Shown: piece after piece, positions 4,260 to 12,699 of the stretch
Position numbering within the stretch: the first letter of the stretch is position 1
Layout of the letters: each line of letters begins with the position of its first letter
NCBI GenBank assembly: GCA_017439555.1
Contig: JAFSIZ010000032.1
Coordinates: 1-32,764, forward strand
Reading direction: 5' to 3'
Length of the DNA stretch: 32,764 nt
DNA from: Oscillospiraceae bacterium
GTDB lineage: Bacteria; Bacillota; Clostridia; Oscillospirales; JAAYXM01
The notes under the pieces: generated by a model
Databases searched by the model: none
What the model saw: the letters and a program-made list of their open reading frames with translations, nothing else
Told to the model about the DNA's origin: nothing
Made by a program: the position numbers and the translations under genes

Positions 4260-5684
4260 ATGGCAAAGACAGCAAAAGACATTATGAAGCTTATTCGCGA
4301 AAACGACATTCAGATGGTCGATTTCAAAATGGTTGACATCAACGGTCAATACCGTCACGTTACCATTCCGGCAAAGAATTTTTCAGAGACAACGATGCAG
4401 AACGGAATCGGCTTTGATGCTTCAAACTATGGCTATGCCGTTGTTGAGAAGAGCGATATGGTGTTCATTCCGGATCCTGACACGGCGGTTATGGACCCGT
4501 TCTGCGAAATTCCGACTCTTTCGATGACGGGAAATGCAATGATTATCGACAATCCCGAAAACCGTCCGCTTGCGCAGTATCCGAGAAATATTGTTCTCGC
4601 GGCGGAAAAATATATGAAGGACAGTGGCATTGCGGACACGATGCTCATCCTTCCCGAATTTGAATTCTATCTTTTTGACGATGTTGCCTGGAATGTCTCT
4701 CCGAACAACATCAGTATGAGCCTCGATGCTCGCCAGACATATTGGAACAGCGGTATGGAAGGTCACGGCGTTGTCGTTCCGAAGCAGAAGAACTATCACG
4801 TCGCAAAGCCGTTTGACCCGACATATGAATGCCGCAGCGAAATGTGTATGCTTATGGAGGAAGCAGGCATAACCATCAAATATCATCACCCCGAGGTTGG
4901 TGCGGCAGGTCAGTTTGAGATTGAGCCGCAGCTCGGTGAGATGTCAAAGATGGCGGATGCGACGATGATGATAAAATATATCATCCGCAACACAGCTCTC
5001 AAACACGGGCTTTCCGCAACTCTTATGCCAAAGCCCGTCTATGGCGAGGCCGGCAACGGAATGCACGTCCATATCCTTCTTATGAAGGACGGCGAGCCTG
5101 TATTCTCTGATGACAACGGTTATTCAAACCTCAGCGAGACGGCACACTACTTTATGGGTGGACTTCTCAAGCATATCGCGTCTCTTTGCGCAATCACAAA
5201 TCCGAGCACAAATTCGTTCAAGCGCCTTGTTCCGGGCTTTGAAGCTCCTGTAACAGTCGGTTATGCGACATCAAACAGAAGTGCTGTCATTCGTATACCG
5301 GCATATGCAAAGACGCCGAATCTCCGCCGCTTTGAAATCCGCAATCCTGATGCTACCTGCAACCCGTATTTCTGCTATGCGGCAATACTTATGGCAGGTC
5401 TTGACGGCATCAAGAACAAGATCGACCCACACGCGAACGGCTGGGGCCCCTATGACGTCAACCTCTTCAATCTTCCCGAGGAAGAGAAGGCAAAGCTCAA
5501 GAGCCTTCCGACATCGCTTGATGCGGCTCTCGATGCGCTTGAGGTTGACCACGATTACCTCACTGCAGGCGGAGTCTTCCCTGAAGAGCTTATTGCGAAC
5601 TTCATCAAGACAAAGCGCGCAGAATGCCTCCGTCTTTCGCAGATCCCGAATCCTGCGGAATTTGAGCAGTACTATAACCTTTAA
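4260..5684 (+). CDS. glnA: Glutamine synthetase type I (GSI-beta-like)
   Basis: It makes glutamine from glutamate, ammonia and ATP. The 474-residue length fits GSI-beta better than the ~444-residue GSI-alpha typical of Bacillota. Recognisable elements are the N-terminal beta-grasp domain, EFEFYLFD, EIEPQLGEMSKMAD, the catalytic GNGMHVHI, the ATP-site loop NPSTNSFKRLVPG and the metal-binding RRFEIRNPDA. At the position of the adenylylated Tyr of enteric enzymes (NLYDLP) the sequence reads NLFNLP, so that Tyr is Phe and classical adenylylation should be impossible. ATG 4260 was chosen because GGAGG at 4247-4251 is 8 nt upstream; an upstream in-frame ATG at 4242 overlaps that site. The gene is monocistronic with its own promoter and a strong terminator. 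Confidence 0.95.
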   Translation: MAKTAKDIMKLIRENDIQMVDFKMVDINGQYRHVTIPAKNFSETTMQNGIGFDASNYGYAVVEKSDMVFIPDPDTAVMDPFCEIPTLSMTGNAMIIDNPENRPLAQYPRNIVLAAEKYMKDSGIADTMLILPEFEFYLFDDVAWNVSPNNISMSLDARQTYWNSGMEGHGVVVPKQKNYHVAKPFDPTYECRSEMCMLMEEAGITIKYHHPEVGAAGQFEIEPQLGEMSKMADATMMIKYIIRNTALKHGLSATLMPKPVYGEAGNGMHVHILLMKDGEPVFSDDNGYSNLSETAHYFMGGLLKHIASLCAITNPSTNSFKRLVPGFEAPVTVGYATSNRSAVIRIPAYAKTPNLRRFEIRNPDATCNPYFCYAAILMAGLDGIKNKIDPHANGWGPYDVNLFNLPEEEKAKLKSLPTSLDAALDALEVDHDYLTAGGVFPEELIANFIKTKRAECLRLSQIPNPAEFEQYYNL

Positions 5685-5689
5685 AAGAA

Positions 5690-5729
5690 AAAGAACACCT
5701 TTCGCATATTTTTGCGAAAGGTGTTCTTT
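5690..5729. terminator. Bidirectional terminator between glnA and DUF1292 gene
   Basis: A perfect 17-bp stem (5690-5706 with 5713-5729, left arm AAAGAACACCTTTCGCA) encloses a 6-nt loop. On the minus strand it is followed by TTTTTCTTTT, a strong U-tract, so it best serves the minus-strand gene ending at 5739. It begins 6 nt after the glnA stop, so it can serve both. Confidence 0.85.
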
Positions 5730-5738
5730 GGTTTGTCA

Positions 5739-6008
5739 TCAGTCTTCAAATGTGAATTCGTCTTTGAATTTTTCTTTGAAAAGCTCAAAGACTGCCATAA
5801 GCTCGGCTTCGTTGTCGATGCTCTCATAGGATTCTTCATTATCTCCGGCAGGAACAACCTTGAGAATTACGACCTCGCCCGAATCGTCGTCTTCCGTCGG
5901 GAAAAGAACAACATATTCGCTGTTTTCGTATTCGATGAGAGCGAGAAACTCAAAGGCAACGTCGTTGCCGTCATCGTCTGTAAGTATGATTGTGTTATCG
6001 ATATCCAT
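5739..6008 (-). CDS. DUF1292 family small acidic protein
   Basis: This 89-residue, strongly acidic protein matches the DUF1292 (YrzB-like) pattern: an N-terminal DNTIILTDDDGNDVAFEFL strand pair, then EYVVLFP and EVVILKV, ending in an acidic FxxFKEKF-like helix. The family is widespread in Bacillota and often lies near alanyl-tRNA synthetase or Holliday-resolvase genes; here it is alone. Its function is not established. The start at 6008 is supported by AAGGAGGA (complement of 6015-6022) 6 nt upstream. It has its own promoter and shares a terminator with glnA. Confidence 0.85.
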   Translation of the reverse strand: MDIDNTIILTDDDGNDVAFEFLALIEYENSEYVVLFPTEDDDSGEVVILKVVPAGDNEESYESIDNEAELMAVFELFKEKFKDEFTFED

Positions 6009-6056
6009 TATTAAATCCTCCTTGTTTTGTCTTTTATAATTTATGGTTTTTTGATT

Positions 6057-6085
6057 AATATACCACGTTTTTGAAGCGCGGTCAA
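6057..6085 (-). promoter_or_regulatory. Promoter of the DUF1292 gene
   Basis: Read on the minus strand: TTGACC (6085-6080), 17-nt spacer, TATATT (6062-6057). It starts one base after the stop codon of the FliB-like gene, so the DUF1292 gene can be transcribed independently of that neighbour. Confidence 0.65.
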
Positions 6086-7003
6086 TTATAAGCTGCTGAG
6101 AATAATATCGCGGTTTTCATCAGAATATTCAATTTCGGATGAAAATAAGCGCGCGAGTCCGACCTGAGTTTCAAAGCTGAGTTCGCCGTTTTCAGCAAAC
6201 AGCGCCATTCCTGCGGCGTATATGATTTCATATGCGAATGCCGCAAATGCAGCTCTTTCAGCCATTCCTTCGTCATCGGATGCGTTTGCAAAATGGCGAT
6301 AGATAAAATATACAAGCAGCTGCTCATATTCCGTTTCGCGCCCTTGTATATAAAGCGCAAAATCGTCCTTTATCGGCTGAGGCTGTGATATTTTTTCAAG
6401 CACATCTTCCCATTGGCTGTCCATGCGCTCGAGCGACATAAGGAGCGGCACATAGTGATAAACCTCGCGGAGCGGCTTTGAATTGCAGAGCGAGAGCATT
6501 TCGGTTATGCGTTCACTGATGCTTTCTGTGCGGTTCTGCAATATGGATATGATTTCATCGCGCTTCCGGATGATTTCGTCTTGGGTGTCGCCATCTCCGC
6601 TGATTTCGAGCGTCATAGGCGTCGCTTTTCCGAGAATCAGCCTTGCTGCTTCTTCGCAGCAAAGGCCGAGCCCTGTCTCTATCCTGCCGGGCAGCTCGTT
6701 GCGGAACCGCGGATGCTCTGTGCAGATATCACAGAGCGCTTCTTCGCCGAGTGTGAGAATGATATCGCAAAGATTATCGCAGTTGAGAAACGGACATCTC
6801 TCATCTTTGGTGAGAATGAAATGTGTATCACCCTCGTGTGATATGTTTTTGCAAAGCCGTTTTCCAAGCTCATCCGGAACTGTTTCATAGAAGGCGGCGG
6901 TGTCGGCATCAATATCTATCTCCCAGCCGATACAGCAATTGTGGCGGCACGATGAGGCGATGCATTTGAAATTTTTGTAGTAGTCGGGAAAAACAAAGAG
7001 CAT
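6086..7003 (-). CDS. FliB-like Cys-rich protein (flagellin lysine-N-methylase family)
   Basis: The 305-residue protein matches the FliB/lysine-N-methylase family, named for Salmonella FliB, which methylates flagellin lysines. Visible are the N-terminal CIASSCRHNCCIGWEIDID block (Cys14, 19, 23, 24, Trp27) and the second cluster CPFLNCDNLCDI...GEEALCDICTEHPRF. These resemble the CxxxCC metal-binding proteins, and a bound metal or Fe-S cluster is likely. The C-terminal half is helical and poorly conserved. No flagellar or chemotaxis gene is in the window, so the methylase name should be treated as a family label. It is transcribed divergently from the reductase operon from its own consensus promoter; a weak AAGGA lies about 9 nt before the ATG. 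Confidence 0.8.
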   Translation of the reverse strand: MLFVFPDYYKNFKCIASSCRHNCCIGWEIDIDADTAAFYETVPDELGKRLCKNISHEGDTHFILTKDERCPFLNCDNLCDIILTLGEEALCDICTEHPRFRNELPGRIETGLGLCCEEAARLILGKATPMTLEISGDGDTQDEIIRKRDEIISILQNRTESISERITEMLSLCNSKPLREVYHYVPLLMSLERMDSQWEDVLEKISQPQPIKDDFALYIQGRETEYEQLLVYFIYRHFANASDDEGMAERAAFAAFAYEIIYAAGMALFAENGELSFETQVGLARLFSSEIEYSDENRDIILSSL

Positions 7004-7034
7004 AGCTTAAAATCCTTTACATTTTTCTAAAATA

Positions 7035-7063
7035 ATTATATGCCCGGCGTATAAAGTTGTCAA
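7035..7063 (-). promoter_or_regulatory. Promoter of the FliB-like gene
   Basis: Minus strand TTGACA (7063-7058), 17-nt spacer, TATAAT (7040-7035): a perfect sigma-A consensus. It sits back to back with the promoter at 7083-7112, with only 19 nt between the two -35 boxes. Confidence 0.8.
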
Positions 7064-7082
7064 TCGCTTTCTTGGATGTGAT

Positions 7083-7112
7083 TTGACATCCGGGTATGTG
7101 AAGAGGTATAAT
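7083..7112 (+). promoter_or_regulatory. Promoter of the reductase/AcnX operon
   Basis: TTGACA at 7083-7088, an 18-nt spacer and TATAAT at 7107-7112, both boxes perfect. The leader to the ATG at 7160 is about 40 nt. This is the only good promoter seen ahead of the five-gene operon that ends at 12656. Confidence 0.8.
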
Positions 7113-7159
7113 TAAATAATTGAGAAACAGCAAGGCGAATGTAAGAGGAGTTGAAAAAT

Positions 7160-9220
7160 ATGGATCAGAAATATGAAGCATTGTTCACCCCCTGGAAAAT
7201 AGGCAATGTCGAGATAAAGAACCGCATTGTTATGTGTCCGATGGGCGGAACATCCCTTTTCGGCTGGTTTGAGCTGACGGGCTGTCATTTTGATAAGGAA
7301 GCCGCAAAGCTTTTCCTCGAGAGAGCGAAAAACAATGTCGGTCTCATCATACCTGGAATTGCGCCCTTGCGCGATACGTTCTGGGGCAAATGGCTCTGGC
7401 AGAATCCGAAAATGTTCCGTGACCTTAAGGTGTTTATGGATGAAATACATAAGACGGGGGCAAAGCTCTTCATTCAGCTGACGGCAGGTATGGGGCGCTC
7501 TTGGGCGATAACGGAGCTTGTCGCTCCCTTACACAAAAATAAATTTACCCGTGCGCTCATCAAGCCGATTATCGACACAAGCCACGAGCTTGCATCTCCT
7601 TCTCCGCAGAAATCGCGCTGGGCACACGATATTGAGTGTCCGGAGATAACAAAGGAGCAGATACACGAAATTATCGAAGCGTTCGTAAAAACCGCCAAGC
7701 TCTGCAAGGAAGCAGGGGTAGACGGTGTTGAGATTCACGCGGTTCACGAAGGCTATCTTCTCGACCAGTTCGCAATCGAATTCTTCAACAAGCGCACTGA
7801 TGAATATGGCGGAAGCTTTGAAAATCGCTATCGCTTTGCCGCAGAGATCGTCAAGGAAATCAAGAAAGCCTGCGGAAAGGATTTCCCCGTATCGCTCCGC
7901 TATTCGGTCGAATCAAAGCTCAAGGACTTCTGCTATGGCGCGATGCCCGGTGAGGATTATGTCGAGGCAGGACGCGCAATGGAGGAATCCGAAAGAGCGG
8001 CAAAATATCTGCAGGATGCGGGCTATGATATGCTCAATGCCGACAACGGAACATACGATTCGTGGTATTGGGCGCATCCGCCAATGTATATGCCGCAGAA
8101 CTGCAACCTCGACGATGTTGCACATATAAAGAAATTTGTCGATATCCCCGTTGTCTGTGCAGGCAGGATGGAGCCGGATGTCGGCGCAAAGGCAGTTGCG
8201 GATGGGCTTATTGATGCCGTCGGCGTTGCCCGTCAGTTCCTGACCGATCCCGAATGGGTGACGAAGCTTATTGAGGACAGACTTGAGGACATCAAGCCCT
8301 GCATCTGCTGTCACAGCGCTTGCTTCAACTTCTCATCCTCCAAGGGGCACGCGAACACGCAGGACCTCAAGGACACGATGGGGCTTGCGCGCTGTGCGCT
8401 CAATCCGCAGACGATGCAGTCGAAGAAATATCATATCGAGCCTGCAAAGAAACAGAAAAAGATTGCTGTTATCGGCGGCGGTATCGGTGGTATGGAGGCG
8501 GCTATCGTCTCGGCAAAGCGCGGTCACACGGTAACGCTTTACGAAAAGAGTGAGAAACTCGGCGGTGTGTTTATTGCGGCGGCGGCTCCTTCCTTCAAGG
8601 AAAAGGACAGAGCGCTCATCGCGTGGTACATCCGCGAGCTGAACAAATATCCCATTGACGTCAGGTTGAACAGCGAAATCAAGGACATTGCGGCTCTTGA
8701 TGCTGACGAGGTTATCGTTGCAACGGGTGCCGTTGCGAAGAAGATTCCCGTCAAGGGCGCGGATAAAGCGGTCGAAGCTGTCGACTATCTTCTCGGAAAC
8801 AAGACAGTTGGCGAGAATGTTGTCATCATCGGCGGCGGACTTACGGGTTGTGAGATAGCGTATGACCTCTATCTCGGCGGCAAGAAGCCGGTTATCGTCG
8901 AAATGATGGATGACCTTATCGTAACACCGGGAATTTCCCTTGCAAACACGAGCTATCTCCGCGATTTCTTCAAGACAAATAAGGTTCCGGTATATCTTGA
9001 AACCTCGCTCTCGGAAATCAATGACGGAAGCGTTACGCTTAAAGATAAGGAAGGAAAGACATTCACGGTGGATGCCGATTCCGTCATCCTCTCCGTCGGA
9101 TATAATCCTTCACCCGTTGCTCCGAAGAGCAAACATGTCCACGTTATAGGCGATGCCGCAAAGGTCGGCAACCTTCGCTCCGTCATCTGGGGCGCTTGGG
9201 ATATTGCAATGAAGCTTTAA
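7160..9220 (+). CDS. OYE-type FMN/Fe-S/FAD oxidoreductase (enoate/2,4-dienoyl-CoA reductase-like)
   Basis: The 686-residue protein has the three-part architecture of 2,4-dienoyl-CoA reductase, enoate reductase and BaiCD/BaiH. An FMN-binding old-yellow-enzyme barrel (about 1-370) opens with LFTPWKIGNVEIKNRIVMCPMG. A [4Fe-4S] motif follows (Cys381, 384, 388 and 412). Then come an FAD domain with VIGGGIGG (about 438-445) and an inserted NAD(P) domain with IIGGGLTG (about 556-563). Such enzymes reduce activated C=C bonds with NAD(P)H, or run demethylation or oxidation reactions. The fourth cluster Cys is 23 residues after the third, against about 11 in E. coli FadH. GGAG (7147-7150) is 9 nt before ATG 7160; a TTG at 7151 touches that site and was rejected. 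First gene of the operon, followed 13 nt later by the AcnX large subunit. Substrate unknown. Confidence 0.88.
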   Translation: MDQKYEALFTPWKIGNVEIKNRIVMCPMGGTSLFGWFELTGCHFDKEAAKLFLERAKNNVGLIIPGIAPLRDTFWGKWLWQNPKMFRDLKVFMDEIHKTGAKLFIQLTAGMGRSWAITELVAPLHKNKFTRALIKPIIDTSHELASPSPQKSRWAHDIECPEITKEQIHEIIEAFVKTAKLCKEAGVDGVEIHAVHEGYLLDQFAIEFFNKRTDEYGGSFENRYRFAAEIVKEIKKACGKDFPVSLRYSVESKLKDFCYGAMPGEDYVEAGRAMEESERAAKYLQDAGYDMLNADNGTYDSWYWAHPPMYMPQNCNLDDVAHIKKFVDIPVVCAGRMEPDVGAKAVADGLIDAVGVARQFLTDPEWVTKLIEDRLEDIKPCICCHSACFNFSSSKGHANTQDLKDTMGLARCALNPQTMQSKKYHIEPAKKQKKIAVIGGGIGGMEAAIVSAKRGHTVTLYEKSEKLGGVFIAAAAPSFKEKDRALIAWYIRELNKYPIDVRLNSEIKDIAALDADEVIVATGAVAKKIPVKGADKAVEAVDYLLGNKTVGENVVIIGGGLTGCEIAYDLYLGGKKPVIVEMMDDLIVTPGISLANTSYLRDFFKTNKVPVYLETSLSEINDGSVTLKDKEGKTFTVDADSVILSVGYNPSPVAPKSKHVHVIGDAAKVGNLRSVIWGAWDIAMKL

Positions 9221-9233
9221 GGAGGCGATTTTT

Positions 9234-10517
9234 ATGGCTATGATTTTAAATGAAGAACAGCAGGCGATACTTGACGGTGCTCGCGGCGAAACTATGGCAA
9301 AGGTTATGAAGACTCTTGTTATGTATGGCGAAGCTTTCGGCGCGGAAAAGCTCGTTCCCGTCACATCTGAATATAACCATCTTGTAACATCGTTCGGTCT
9401 CGGTGTCATCGAGCCCGTCTATGAGCTTATGGAAAAGCTTATAGAGGCAGGTGCGGTCTCCTCGCAGAAATTCTCGATGGATCCGCGTCCGCTTGACAAG
9501 AACGTCCCGCAGAATTTATTGCAGAAGCTCGTTTTCAAGAAGTTTATGTATAACAAGCAGGATTTCTATGAAGGTCAGCTTGAAAAGCTCGGACTTATGG
9601 ACAAGGATGCATTCACCTGCACCTGCTATATGGATGAGGTCGGAAACAAGCCGAAATTCGGAGATGTTCTCAGCTGGGCGGAATCCTCGGCAGTCGTCTA
9701 TGCAAACAGCGTCATAGGCGCACGCTGCAACCGCAACTCGGGAATCATTGACCTTATGGGCTCGATTGTCGGATGCGTTCCGTATTTCGGGCTTCTGACG
9801 GATGAGGGAAGACGCGCTTCTTGGATTGTCCGCGTCGAGACAACGAAGAAGCCTGAAGCTCAGCTTCTCGGTTCTGCGATTGGAATGAAGGTAATGGAGG
9901 ATGTGCCTTATGTCGAAGGTCTCGACAAATGGCTCGGAACAGAGCTTTCCGACAGCGCCTGCACATATCTCAAGGACTTCGGCGCCGCAACCGCTTCAAA
10001 CGGCGCGGTAGGTCTTTACCACATCGATAACCTTACGCCCGAAGCAAAGCTTCAGGGAAAAGAACTCATCCGTGAGGATGCGAAGGTATATGTCATAGAC
10101 GATGAGGAGCTTGCCCGCGTTCAGAGGGAATACCCGATAGTCTGGAAAAATCCCGATGCAAGCCCGAAGCTCTGCTTTGTCGGTTGCCCCCATATGTCAT
10201 TGCGCCAGCTTATCGACTGGACAGAGAATCTTGAAAAAGCGTTCTCCGAAAACGGCAGAAAAAAGGTCACGGTTCCGACGGTATTTACAGCGGCACCCGG
10301 AGTGCTTGAAAAATTCAATGCAACGGAATATGCTGAAAAGCTCAAGTCCTTCGGTGTCATAACCTCATATATATGTCCGCTTATGTATATGAACAATCCA
10401 ATGTGCGCGAAAATGCCGGTTATAACATCGTCAAACAAGCTCCGCACATATACAACCGCAAAATATTACAGAGATGAAGAAATTCTTTCAATTATAACGG
10501 GAGGTGAGCGCAAATGA
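9234..10517 (+). CDS. Aconitase X catalytic (large) subunit, DUF521
   Basis: The 427-residue protein matches the AcnX catalytic domain (formerly DUF521). The key block is AFTCTCYMDEVG, then SWAESSAVVYANSVIGARCNRNSG, with GCPHMSLRQL and an ITSYICPLM segment later. The Cys in these three places are where the family binds its Fe or Fe-S centre. Known AcnX enzymes are dehydratases: cis-3-hydroxy-L-proline dehydratase in bacteria and phosphomevalonate dehydratase in archaea. Some positions differ from the family pattern as I remember it (GARCNR for GARTNR, a Tyr-Ile-Cys for Asp-Thr-Cys near the end), so the substrate could be different. AAGGAGG at 9219-9225 sets the ATG at 9234. It overlaps the small-subunit gene by 4 nt (ATGA), as expected for a 1:1 complex. 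Confidence 0.88.
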   Translation: MAMILNEEQQAILDGARGETMAKVMKTLVMYGEAFGAEKLVPVTSEYNHLVTSFGLGVIEPVYELMEKLIEAGAVSSQKFSMDPRPLDKNVPQNLLQKLVFKKFMYNKQDFYEGQLEKLGLMDKDAFTCTCYMDEVGNKPKFGDVLSWAESSAVVYANSVIGARCNRNSGIIDLMGSIVGCVPYFGLLTDEGRRASWIVRVETTKKPEAQLLGSAIGMKVMEDVPYVEGLDKWLGTELSDSACTYLKDFGAATASNGAVGLYHIDNLTPEAKLQGKELIREDAKVYVIDDEELARVQREYPIVWKNPDASPKLCFVGCPHMSLRQLIDWTENLEKAFSENGRKKVTVPTVFTAAPGVLEKFNATEYAEKLKSFGVITSYICPLMYMNNPMCAKMPVITSSNKLRTYTTAKYYRDEEILSIITGGERK

Positions 10518-10957
10518 AGAAGTTTCAGGGAAGAGTTGTAACTCCGGGAAAGGCGTGTGCCGAGGCGCTCGTCTCAAAGGGCGGACTTAATACGCTCGCA
10601 TCCTTCCAGAAGCCGCTTCAGTTCGGAGACAAGACAGCGAAATGCGGAGATCAGAATAACCCCGATCTTTATGGCAAGCCGATGGCCGGAAAGGCTCTCT
10701 GCATTCCGCAGACGATTGGCTCGACAACGGGCGGAATGGTTCTCTATTGCGCTTGTGCAATGAAGAGAAACCCTGCCTGCATCTTGTTCTCTAAGCCGAT
10801 AGATTCGCTCGCGGCGGCAGGTGCTGTGCTTGCGGATGTCTGGGTCGACGGTGTCTCGATGCCGGTTGTCGATTCGCTAGGTGATGAGTTCCTTGACTAT
10901 GTCAAGGACGGAATGAAAATAACCGTCGGAGAAGACGGTGTTGTTGAGGTAGAATAA
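10514..10957 (+). CDS. Aconitase X swivel (small) subunit, DUF126
   Basis: The 147-residue protein matches the AcnX swivel domain (DUF126), which supplies part of the active site to the catalytic subunit encoded just upstream. It starts with the family-like beta strand FQGRVVTPGKACAEALVS. It keeps the DLYGKPMAGKALCIPQ stretch and the Ser/Thr-rich turn IGSTTGGMVL, which corresponds to the substrate-binding Ser loop (G-R-G-S-S-S-type) of the family. ASAGAVL-like IDSLAAAGAVLADV and PVVDSLGDE follow. GGAGGTG at 10500-10506 precedes the ATG, which overlaps the large-subunit stop (ATGA). Split subunits are one of the two common arrangements; in others the two are fused. Confidence 0.88.
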   Translation: MKKFQGRVVTPGKACAEALVSKGGLNTLASFQKPLQFGDKTAKCGDQNNPDLYGKPMAGKALCIPQTIGSTTGGMVLYCACAMKRNPACILFSKPIDSLAAAGAVLADVWVDGVSMPVVDSLGDEFLDYVKDGMKITVGEDGVVEVE

Positions 10958-10959
10958 AA

Positions 10960-11217
10960 ATGCGATACTCATATAAAACGCGCGGTGTCTGTGCTATGCA
11001 GATAAATTTTGATATTGACGGCGAGGTTATCTCAAACATAGAATTCCTCGGCGGTTGCAACGGAAATCTCAAGGCGATCTCAAAGCTTTGCGAGGGTATG
11101 ACTGTTTCGGAAATCGAGGAAAAGCTCCTCGGCAACACCTGCGGATATAAGGACACATCCTGCGCTGATCAGTTTGCAAAAGCAGTTAGGCGCGCGGCAA
11201 GCGGTGAAAATAGATGA
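10960..11217 (+). CDS. TSCPD-domain small protein (TIGR03905 family)
   Basis: This 85-residue protein matches TIGR03905/TSCPD proteins, small Cys-rich proteins of unknown role related to the C-terminal tail of B12-dependent ribonucleotide reductases. Conserved features are FLGGCNGNLKAISKL (Cys33), LLGNTCGYKDTSCADQ (Cys61, Cys68) and the EGMTVSEIEEKL helix between them. The name motif reads TSCAD here, so the Pro is Ala. Cys11 and Cys44 are extra. A metal-binding or Fe-S-related role is plausible but unproven. The ATG lies 3 nt after the AcnX small-subunit stop and its own stop overlaps the next ATG by 4 nt, so it is translationally coupled within the operon. Confidence 0.85.
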   Translation: MRYSYKTRGVCAMQINFDIDGEVISNIEFLGGCNGNLKAISKLCEGMTVSEIEEKLLGNTCGYKDTSCADQFAKAVRRAASGENR

Positions 11218-12656
11218 AGAAAACCTATGTGACAACAATGCCCGATCATATCGGCGCATTCCTGAAGGCGAGCCGATGCTTTGAGTCTCTTGGGCTCAAT
11301 ATAACGAGAGTAAGCTATAATAAAGCGGTTGATGTCAACACGCTTTTTATAGATGTTGAGGGCGAAAAAGATAAGCTTGAGCTTGCGGAGCTTCAGCTTC
11401 GGGAAATCGGATATCTCAGAAATACCGCGGAGGAAAAGAGCGTTGTTCTGCTTGAATTTCGCTTGCTTGATGTTCCGGGAAGCGTCACTGATGTGCTTGA
11501 GCTTATTGATGAGTTCAAGTTCAACATATCCTATATAAGCTCGCAGGAAAACGGAACTGAATATCAGCTTTTCAAGATGGGGCTCTTTGTCGAGCATCCG
11601 GATAAAATCACGGAGTTTTTAAGCCGTGCGGAAAAGCTCTGCGATGTGAGGGTCATAGATTATAACCGCTCGGAAAAGATCTTTGACAACAGTATATTCT
11701 ATAATTCGTTTGTTTCAAGCCTTGTTGAAACAATGCAGATATCCGAGGAGAACAAGAACGCCTTGCTCGTCAATGCTAATCTTGCGATGCAAACGCTTGA
11801 TGAAACCGGGCTTTCTCCTTATCGGACGTTTGACAGCATAAGCAAATTTGCAGAGCTTCTCGCAGCCTGCCGCGGCGAGGCGTTCAATCCGAGAATAACG
11901 CGCCACGAAATCTCAGAGAATACGGATATTCTGCTCATAGAGCCGCCCTGCGGAAGTAACACGATGATTATAAGAAGCGGCGGAAAACTCTTGTTTATAG
12001 ACAGCGGATATGCCTGCTATAAAGAAGAGATGCTTCGGCTTTTTGAGAAAATTCTTCCCGAATATAAAACCGCGGAAAAGAAAATTCTCATAACTCACGC
12101 AGACCTTGACCACTGTGGGCTTCTTTCTGAGTTCGAAGAGGTTATAGCGAGCGAAAAAACAAAGGAGTGCCTCGCTCTCGAGTTTGAGGAGCAGGGAGGA
12201 TTCCGTGAAAGAAACGCGCTCCATAAGCCATATATCGGGATATGCAAGATATTGACTTCGTATGAACCGTGCAATCCCGAAAAGATCAAGGCACCTTGGA
12301 AAAGCGCAGAAAAAAGCGCGGCTCCGCTTTGCCAGACAGGCTTCTTTGATTTTGGAGAGCTTCATTTTGAAGTATATGAGGGCAGCGGCGGTCACCTTTC
12401 GGGTGAAACTGTTCTCATTGATTATCAGCACCATATCGCCTTTACGGGTGACATATATATAAACCTCAAGGGTATGACACCCGAGCAGGCGAAATATAAC
12501 ACCTATGCTCCCATTCTTATGACCTCTGTAGATACAGACCCTGTATTGTGTGCAGAGGAGAGGCGGGCAGTGCTTCAGCGTCTCGGCGCAGGAGGCTGGA
12601 AGATTTTCGGCTCACACGGCGCCGCAAAAGAATATTCTGTCAATATAGAAAAATAG
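11214..12656 (+). CDS. ACT-ACT-metallo-beta-lactamase fold fusion protein
   Basis: The 480-residue protein has two N-terminal ACT-like domains: about 3-70, with a DHIGAFLKASRCFESLGLNI loop-helix, and about 79-150, with DVPGSVTDVLELIDEF. A helical linker follows, then a metallo-beta-lactamase fold. The metal motifs are THADLDHCG (His295, Asp297, Asp299, His300), GGHLSGET (His394), FTGDIY (Asp413) and GSHG (His468). The first motif is HxDxDH rather than HxHxDH, a variant also seen in ComEC-like proteins. ACT domains usually bind amino acids, so a hydrolase or sensor gated by an amino acid is a reasonable guess. No specific function can be named. It overlaps the TSCPD gene by 4 nt and ends the operon at a strong terminator. 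Confidence 0.8.
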   Translation: MKKTYVTTMPDHIGAFLKASRCFESLGLNITRVSYNKAVDVNTLFIDVEGEKDKLELAELQLREIGYLRNTAEEKSVVLLEFRLLDVPGSVTDVLELIDEFKFNISYISSQENGTEYQLFKMGLFVEHPDKITEFLSRAEKLCDVRVIDYNRSEKIFDNSIFYNSFVSSLVETMQISEENKNALLVNANLAMQTLDETGLSPYRTFDSISKFAELLAACRGEAFNPRITRHEISENTDILLIEPPCGSNTMIIRSGGKLLFIDSGYACYKEEMLRLFEKILPEYKTAEKKILITHADLDHCGLLSEFEEVIASEKTKECLALEFEEQGGFRERNALHKPYIGICKILTSYEPCNPEKIKAPWKSAEKSAAPLCQTGFFDFGELHFEVYEGSGGHLSGETVLIDYQHHIAFTGDIYINLKGMTPEQAKYNTYAPILMTSVDTDPVLCAEERRAVLQRLGAGGWKIFGSHGAAKEYSVNIEK

Positions 12657-12662
12657 GGGATA

Positions 12663-12699
12663 AAAAAGTAAGGGCTTGCTTTGCAAGCCCTTACTTTTT
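12663..12699. terminator. Bidirectional terminator between convergent operons
   Basis: A 17-bp stem (12663-12679 with 12683-12699) around a TTT loop, with A-tract on the left arm and T-tract on the right. It lies 6 nt after the ACT-MBL stop and 11 nt from the DUF554 stop, so it can stop both convergent transcripts. Confidence 0.9.

Follow-up and report, generated by a model that had tools for sequence, protein, structure and literature searches.

Only two reactions of aconitase X (AcnX) enzymes are characterised according to the available part of PMC8184944, the dehydration of cis-3-hydroxyproline and that of phosphomevalonate. The product of the cis-3-hydroxyproline dehydratase (type I) is taken up by an NAD(P)H-dependent partner enzyme (available part of PMC5144071), a pyrroline-2-carboxylate (C=N) reductase. 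The archaeal phosphomevalonate dehydratase (type IIb) is composed of two subunits, carries a three-cysteine [4Fe-4S] pattern (PMC10040528, available part) and converts a free 3-hydroxy acid into a 2-enoate, which is then decarboxylated. Here we describe a locus of an Oscillospiraceae bacterium (assembly GCA_017439555.1, contig JAFSIZ010000032.1, positions 1 to 32,764, this whole stretch of 32,764 nucleotides being called the window) in which the genes of a two-subunit AcnX follow that of a flavoenzyme of the old yellow enzyme (OYE) type. These three genes, referred to as the trio, code on the + strand for an ene-reductase of 686 aa (OYE, 7160..9220), the AcnX large subunit of 427 aa (AcnX-L, 9234..10517) and the small, or swivel, subunit of 147 aa (AcnX-S, 10514..10957). 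We favour, with modest confidence, the reading that this AcnX would dehydrate a free 3-hydroxy acid and that the OYE would reduce the resulting 2-enoate in a pathway independent of coenzyme A (CoA), most likely serving as an electron sink.

Each half of the trio has described counterparts. The trio AcnX shares its fold and catalytic residues with the type I enzyme and its two subunits, cysteine pattern and best PDB match with type IIb, whose type of reaction is also the one proposed here. However, the reductase of the cis-3-hydroxyproline system acts on a C=N bond and that of the trio is an OYE, and the step after type IIb is a decarboxylation whereas in the trio it would be a reduction. The AcnX types IIc–IIf are also bacterial, have two subunits and lack the landmark residues of the known functions, a likeness taken from the description in the available part of PMC8184944; their functions were called unknown in 2023 (PMC10040528, available part). 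With respect to the reductase, the iron–sulfur flavoenzyme family is large in gut Clostridia and the vast majority of its members have no known function, as stated in the available part of PMC11574389. The clostridial 2-enoate reductase FldZ resembles the OYE, by description, in combining flavin mononucleotide (FMN), a [4Fe-4S] cluster and flavin adenine dinucleotide (FAD), and FldZ-type enzymes reduce free 2-enoates with NADH (PMC5882074, available part). Nevertheless, the partners of FldZ are CoA-dependent radical dehydratases (PMC11574389, same part), whereas the partner of the trio OYE is AcnX. BaiCD, bilirubin reductase, FadH and 2-naphthoyl-CoA reductase share the two-domain iron–sulfur flavoenzyme architecture.

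The pairing of AcnX with OYE, already pointed out in a preliminary description of this DNA, is conserved among relatives. The comparison covered 80 loci, the closest (76-81% identity) among the relatives of the large subunit, which number at least 564; they come from gut Clostridia and mostly from metagenome-assembled genomes. The small subunit accompanies the large one in all 80, and the OYE gene lies upstream on the same strand in 76, with a gap between match edges of 9-502 nt (median 24; 200 nt or less in 72). An adjoining OYE is missing at L004, L007, L065 and L024, the contig of the last beginning 672 nt upstream. In a sample of 295 genomes of the order, 29 carry this AcnX, 31 an OYE orthologue (E <= 1e-180) and 28 both; the orthologue is present in 28/29 genomes with AcnX versus 3/266 without it ([[28,1],[3,263]], Fisher p = 1e-34, 10 families). 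The two are adjacent in 21 of the 29 AcnX genomes and apart in seven, either on one contig at about 9-45 kb (G092, G755, G815) or on different contigs (G760, G775, G853, G947). Even where AcnX has no adjacent OYE, seven of eight genomes of this sample possess the orthologue (p = 4e-11 against 3/266). Since the genomes are related, these p-values overstate the case, but the trait is patchily distributed, only 1/5 genomes of the window's own genus having it.

The pairing was also counted in wider samples. Among 291 genomes of the class, 19 have an AcnX of this clade and the OYE orthologue occurs in 12 of them versus 8/272 of the others (p = 9e-12); this count left out three genomes with AcnX fragments (G034, G056, G214) and scored those with another AcnX clade (G220, G109, G134, G063, G226) as lacking it. 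A divergent OYE stands beside AcnX in six (G039, G144, G199, G209, G272 and G248, the last with only a fragment where its contig ends), and 18/19 AcnX genomes hold either the orthologue or such an adjacent divergent OYE. A sample of 398 genomes of the phylum added five genomes with this AcnX, all five with an adjoining OYE.

The operon of the window continues with two more genes, for a TSCPD protein (TIGR03905, 85 aa, 10960..11217, + strand, 114.9 bits) and for a protein joining ACT and metallo-beta-lactamase domains (ACT-MBL, 480 aa, 11214..12656, + strand). The preliminary description treated all five as one set, an idea to be refuted by a lack of linkage in related genomes. Linkage holds for OYE, AcnX-L and AcnX-S but not for the other two, which were found beside AcnX in 0/80 nearest loci (tblastn, E <= 1e-5), 69 of which extend at least 1 kb past the small subunit, nor were they seen at the AcnX loci of the wider sets. 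TSCPD matches occur in 47/59 genomes, including that of the window, and nowhere else beside AcnX; its four genus-mates have none. ACT-MBL gives strong scores in 13/59 genomes and AcnX is present in 7/59, one of them as a fragment, and no association between them was found (3/7 versus 10/52, p = 0.17, with the ACT-MBL fragment G308 and the weak matches G303 and G338 scored as absent and the AcnX fragment G309 as present). The neighbourhoods of ACT-MBL in 11 relatives and one contig fragment contain no AcnX, OYE or TSCPD, several of these contigs being short. TSCPD and ACT-MBL were consequently rejected as members of the module on the 0/80 linkage and the missing ACT-MBL association, and look like local passengers of the operon, which leaves OYE-AcnX-L-AcnX-S as a functional unit of three genes. 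The ACT domains had also been taken as a hint of an amino-acid-linked substrate, but as ACT-MBL is neither linked to nor associated with AcnX, they tell nothing about what AcnX acts on.

Both AcnX subunits belong to the family by profile (PF04412, 318.5 bits against a cut-off of 31.5; PF01989, 45.7 against 27), and the best PDB match is 7cnr. The AlphaFold2 model of AcnX-L (pLDDT 94.7) has as its closest structure this same entry, the archaeal TkAcnX (TM 0.80/0.88, 28% identity in the structural alignment). Catalytic and cluster residues are conserved in both subunits. C129, C318, C381, E150, S151, K402 and Y406 of AcnX-L are kept in at least 98% of the rows (121 of the clade plus pieces of TkAcnX and of AtAcnX, the type I enzyme) and correspond to TkAcnX Cys110, Cys283, Cys342, Glu129, Ser130, Lys361 and Tyr365; S70 and T71 of AcnX-S, matching Ser62 and Thr63, occur in 99% and 97%, respectively, of 122 rows. 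C129, C318, E150 and S151 were matched to TkAcnX by direct alignment, while C381, K402 and Y406, which lie beyond the end of the TkAcnX piece, were judged from the clade together with seven further bacterial AcnX. The matching residues are assigned to cluster binding, contact with the carboxylate and C3 hydroxyl, and abstraction of the C2 proton (PMC8184944, available part). C318 and C381 fit the [4Fe-4S] pattern of type IIb, and the type I motif CxC is missing.

The residues that select the substrate are a different matter. In place of the AtAcnX residues Asp203, Ile206 and Trp35, which hold the proline ring, AcnX-L has V51, F54 and L28, and only one of the four hydroxyproline-enzyme residues, Thr72, is kept (T72); the NCBIfam model of the hydroxyproline enzyme scores 139.5 bits against a cut-off of 700. 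None of the five phosphate contacts of the phosphomevalonate enzyme is retained, TkAcnX Gly48, Val49, Ser50, Asn53 and Asn79 being replaced by T52, S53, F54, G57 (mostly Lys across the clade) and D83. In 98-99% of the clade, other amino acids stand in place of most substrate-selecting residues of both known kinds. Like the presence and coupling of the genes, the conservation of the catalytic residues and the loss of the selecting ones are direct observations. In a tree, a branch of 1.93 changes (SH-aLRT 100) separates the 39 clade rows (L091, L189, L190 and L195 having been left out by duplicate and length filters) from TkAcnX, AtAcnX and the seven further bacterial sequences. By these sequence comparisons the clade is distinct from both characterised kinds, which is the outcome of the phylogenetic check suggested earlier. 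That this AcnX is nonetheless a cis-3-hydroxyproline or phosphomevalonate dehydratase, with an OYE acting on an unrelated compound, would agree with the only AcnX reactions characterised so far, but the replaced residues, the separate clade, the low score for the hydroxyproline enzyme and the near-universal co-occurrence with OYE make it highly improbable.

Matches in Pfam, NCBIfam and the PDB give the OYE the two domains of the iron–sulfur flavoenzymes, Oxidored_FMN (193 bits) and Pyr_redox_2 (125 bits). The cluster motif that lies between these domains has four cysteines (C381, C384, C388, C412), spaced CX2CX3CX23C compared with the published CX2CX3CX11-13C. The best structural matches of its AlphaFold2 model (pLDDT 89.7) are 2-naphthoyl-CoA reductase and 2,4-dienoyl-CoA reductase. 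Neither the bilirubin reductase equivalog cut-off (369.9 against 750 bits) nor that of BaiCD (353.4 against 825 bits) is reached among the NCBIfam models. A solved FldZ-like relative was sought among the PDB and structure matches and none was found; the candidate 6l6j was rejected, being an amine oxidase. The OYE carries HEGY at 196-199 plus the signature DNGTYDSWYWAHPP, and its Tyr199 aligns with Tyr166 of FadH, which we take to be the proton donor of that enzyme. HEGY together with DxGxY[DE]xWxxxHPP is found in every one of the 38 OYEs of the tree that adjoin AcnX and in 18 that do not, and is missing from 13 other OYEs and from 2-naphthoyl-CoA reductase. The tree took 11 of the 76 OYEs of the 80-locus set and 14 of 15 comparison OYEs.

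Taken together with what is known of the two families, dehydration followed by reduction of the new C=C bond, as proposed in the preliminary description, is the simplest chemistry for the pair. The AcnX heterodimer, with its three-cysteine iron–sulfur cluster, would remove water from a free 3-hydroxy carboxylate to give a 2-enoate. In the OYE, electrons would pass from NAD(P)H through FAD, [4Fe-4S] and FMN to the new double bond, yielding a saturated acid. The net reaction would be a CoA-independent reductive dehydroxylation, an outlet for reducing power in an anaerobe. We infer the dehydration of a 3-hydroxy acid, the reductive direction and the electron-sink role from the chemistry of the families.

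This scheme narrows the range of substrates. An ene-reductase needs an alkene that persists, and the substrate should therefore have no hydroxyl or amino group at C2. With such a group the alkene would turn by rearrangement into a keto or imino acid, which makes sugar acids, serine-like acids and hydroxyprolines unlikely candidates. Asp83, present in 98% of the clade at the position of the phosphate contact Asn79 of TkAcnX, could favour a substrate with a positive far end, for instance carnitine, although carnitine itself would have a very slim chance of being the substrate. A gut site is named in the titles of 58/80 nearest loci (colon 21, caecum 20, rectum 17) and none in the other 22; these titles point to life in the hindgut, only as a hint, because the make-up of the source catalogue may shape the count. 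A more specific version of the scheme, in which a 3-hydroxy acid of the hindgut feeds a respiration-like, CoA-free pathway of gut anaerobes and the enoate is the electron acceptor for a signature-bearing OYE or, in one lineage, for a quinol-type complex like fumarate reductase (Frd), is offered tentatively. In two distant genomes the AcnX/OYE genes are immediately preceded by those of PAS-sigma54 activators (L196:4328-5728 and L198:6421-7779), and such regulators fit an inducible catabolic route.

Several observations weigh against the proposed pathway. OYE orthologues occur without this AcnX in 3/31 carriers of the order and 8/20 of the class (11 in total), among them genomes of 0.8-0.9 Mb (G044, G100, G271), and the OYE is thus able to serve without AcnX. 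Conversely, G832 and G049 have AcnX and neither an OYE orthologue nor an adjoining OYE; the AcnX of G832 lies on a 4.6-kb contig, and the nearest OYE of G049 lacks the active-site signature. That signature was picked after the alignment had been seen and marks the superclade, so it is no independent test. The only AcnX of the clade found outside Bacillota in plasmids, from Rhodococcus opacus (48%), has no adjoining OYE. In the reduced genomes G005, G171, G286 and G124 both genes are present but unlinked. Finally, the surveyed neighbours have no common theme and point to no substrate. At the 80 nearest loci, 95 neighbours that run in the same direction as the trio were listed; 24 of these were compared with the family library, as were selected neighbours of later loci. 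It found two-component regulators (L003, L016), an iron-containing alcohol dehydrogenase with an aldehyde dehydrogenase (L075), a piece of an FMN-dependent dehydrogenase (L071), a TAXI-TRAP transporter (L065), a xanthine/uracil-type permease (L200), Met-tRNA ligase and TatD (6 loci each) and unrelated genes. Clusters of open reading frames from 16 and 8 loci that overlie the OYE region on the opposite strand were assumed to be antisense frames.

The reduced genomes G005, G171, G286 and G124, of 0.9-1.2 Mb, bear on a biosynthetic role, in which the trio would make a saturated building block of a lipid, a cofactor or the cell wall and would not be an electron sink. Their retention of both genes speaks for such a role, as does the OYE orthologue of L179 and L180, with which Mur-ligase-like and F420-ligase-like genes are lined up. 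However, these two loci have no AcnX, and the patchy distribution of AcnX (1/5 genomes of the window's genus, 29/295 of the order) would be odd for a core building block; we regard a biosynthetic trio as unlikely. Reduced genomes of 0.8-1.2 Mb (L172-L175, L178) retain the OYE orthologue, with AcnX unlinked in some and absent in others.

The direction of the pathway can also be questioned. Both families are reversible, BaiCD has been assigned one oxidative step (PMC11574389, available part) and the phosphomevalonate dehydratase was assayed as a hydratase (PMC10040528, likewise), so that the OYE might desaturate a saturated acid and AcnX hydrate the product, in a CoA-free analogue of beta-oxidation. 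Enoate/alkanoate couples lie at about 0 V and NAD at about -0.32 V, and NAD+-linked desaturation would therefore be strongly uphill in an anaerobe. In addition, an Frd-like partner found at one locus (L161) suits reduction better, and the oxidative direction is very unlikely.

At this locus (L161 of genome G223, 4571-9239, minus strand) the AcnX genes (63% and 62%) are arranged head to tail with FrdA/SdhA-like and FrdB/SdhB-like genes. Between AcnX and the Frd-like genes lies a gene for a protein of 198 aa with five hydrophobic stretches and histidines at 32, 64, 108 and 144; it has no Pfam match and, from these features, is probably cytochrome-b-like. This may be a quinol-linked form of the AcnX/OYE pathway. 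G223 also has two unlinked OYE orthologues, and the Frd-like set may thus replace the OYE or join it. A cytochrome-b/FrdA/FrdB-like set would be a fitting place for a fumarase as well, and AcnX might act in a fumarase-like way on malate or a substituted malate, with the OYE or the Frd-like complex as a fumarate-type reductase forming succinate or a substituted succinate. Class I fumarase (PF05681) was not found in 8/12 AcnX genomes, class II not having been searched for. It is nevertheless present in 4/12, including the genome of the window and G223, which disfavours AcnX as the sole fumarase, and the OYE falls outside the fumarate-reductase families. We consider the fumarase-like role decidedly unlikely.

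AcnX is paired with more than one OYE lineage, and this change of partner, like the Frd-like set of L161, speaks for the proposed pathway. The AcnX-adjacent OYEs form two groups, about 30% identical to each other, within one superclade of the OYE tree. Group A comprises the enzyme of the window and relatives down to 41% identity (L196), and group B, 29-36% identical to it, lies before AcnX at L153, L154, L156, L157, L159 and L197 and after it at L160, L194, L195 and L198. The AcnX and OYE trees clearly conflict in at least one case, L154 (L096 in the AcnX tree), whose AcnX is 72% identical to that of the window and placed next to group-A AcnXs, while its OYE is of group B (33%). According to the OYE tree, a quick tree with long branches flagged, adjacency to AcnX must have changed at least five times. 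In 5/9 group-B OYEs of this tree (L160, L194, L195, L197, L198) the second cysteine of the iron–sulfur motif is Asp (CIGD for CIGC); an Asp-ligated cluster, if present, would be unusual. A plasmid of Enterococcus raffinosus has an OYE of 43% identity with no AcnX annotated within 8 kb. A different AcnX (25%) on a plasmid of Sporomusa termitida (L193) adjoins genes for acyl-CoA dehydrogenases, electron-transferring flavoprotein, a CoA-transferase and an enoyl-CoA hydratase, and this is perhaps another AcnX-linked reductive pathway.

The genome of the window (2.68 Mb, 200 contigs, 84% complete) has a single AcnX copy. The layout originally described, a contiguous five-gene operon with one promoter and one terminator, was confirmed. 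The five + strand open reading frames are separated by 13 nt (OYE/AcnX-L) and 2 nt (AcnX-S/TSCPD) or overlap by 4 nt (AcnX-L/AcnX-S and TSCPD/ACT-MBL). The preferred OYE start is the ATG at 7160, preceded by AGGAG; the list of reading frames begins it at an upstream TTG (7151). A promoter-like site, TTGACA-18-TATAAT, lies at 7083..7112 (+ strand, 12/12 matches). As 15 such sites were found in 7.5 kb against 8.4 expected, only its perfect score and position favour it. A second 12/12 site on the opposite strand (7063-7035) serves the divergent gene, and the two perfect sigma-70-type sites stand back to back (7035-7112) between the operon and that gene, which encodes a FliB-like lysine-N-methylase (6086-7003). 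Behind the last gene of the operon, between convergent genes, is a terminator hairpin (12663..12699, no strand assigned, 17-bp stem, -25.5 kcal/mol), which the terminator scan did not pick up. The ACT-MBL protein scores above the cut-off for Lactamase_B (31.5 bits) and slightly below that for ACT (25.8 against 27). Its metal motif is HADLDH and departs from what we take to be the usual one, HxHxDH. It is conserved at 63-74% in relatives where it has other neighbours.

The pairing of AcnX with OYE was not found in the titles or abstract openings of the papers listed by searches of an open-licence library. The families are known, and to judge from these papers the AcnX clade is uncharacterised; what is new is a distinct AcnX clade plus a CoA-free OYE partner, within the known scheme of a dehydratase followed by a reductase. 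If the proposed pathway is correct, a bacterial AcnX clade that stands apart from the two characterised kinds would gain a function, and one lineage of the iron–sulfur flavoenzymes of gut Clostridia would gain both a partner and a type of reaction. Since the AcnX/OYE pair is common in gut bacteria, its substrate is probably a real gut metabolite.

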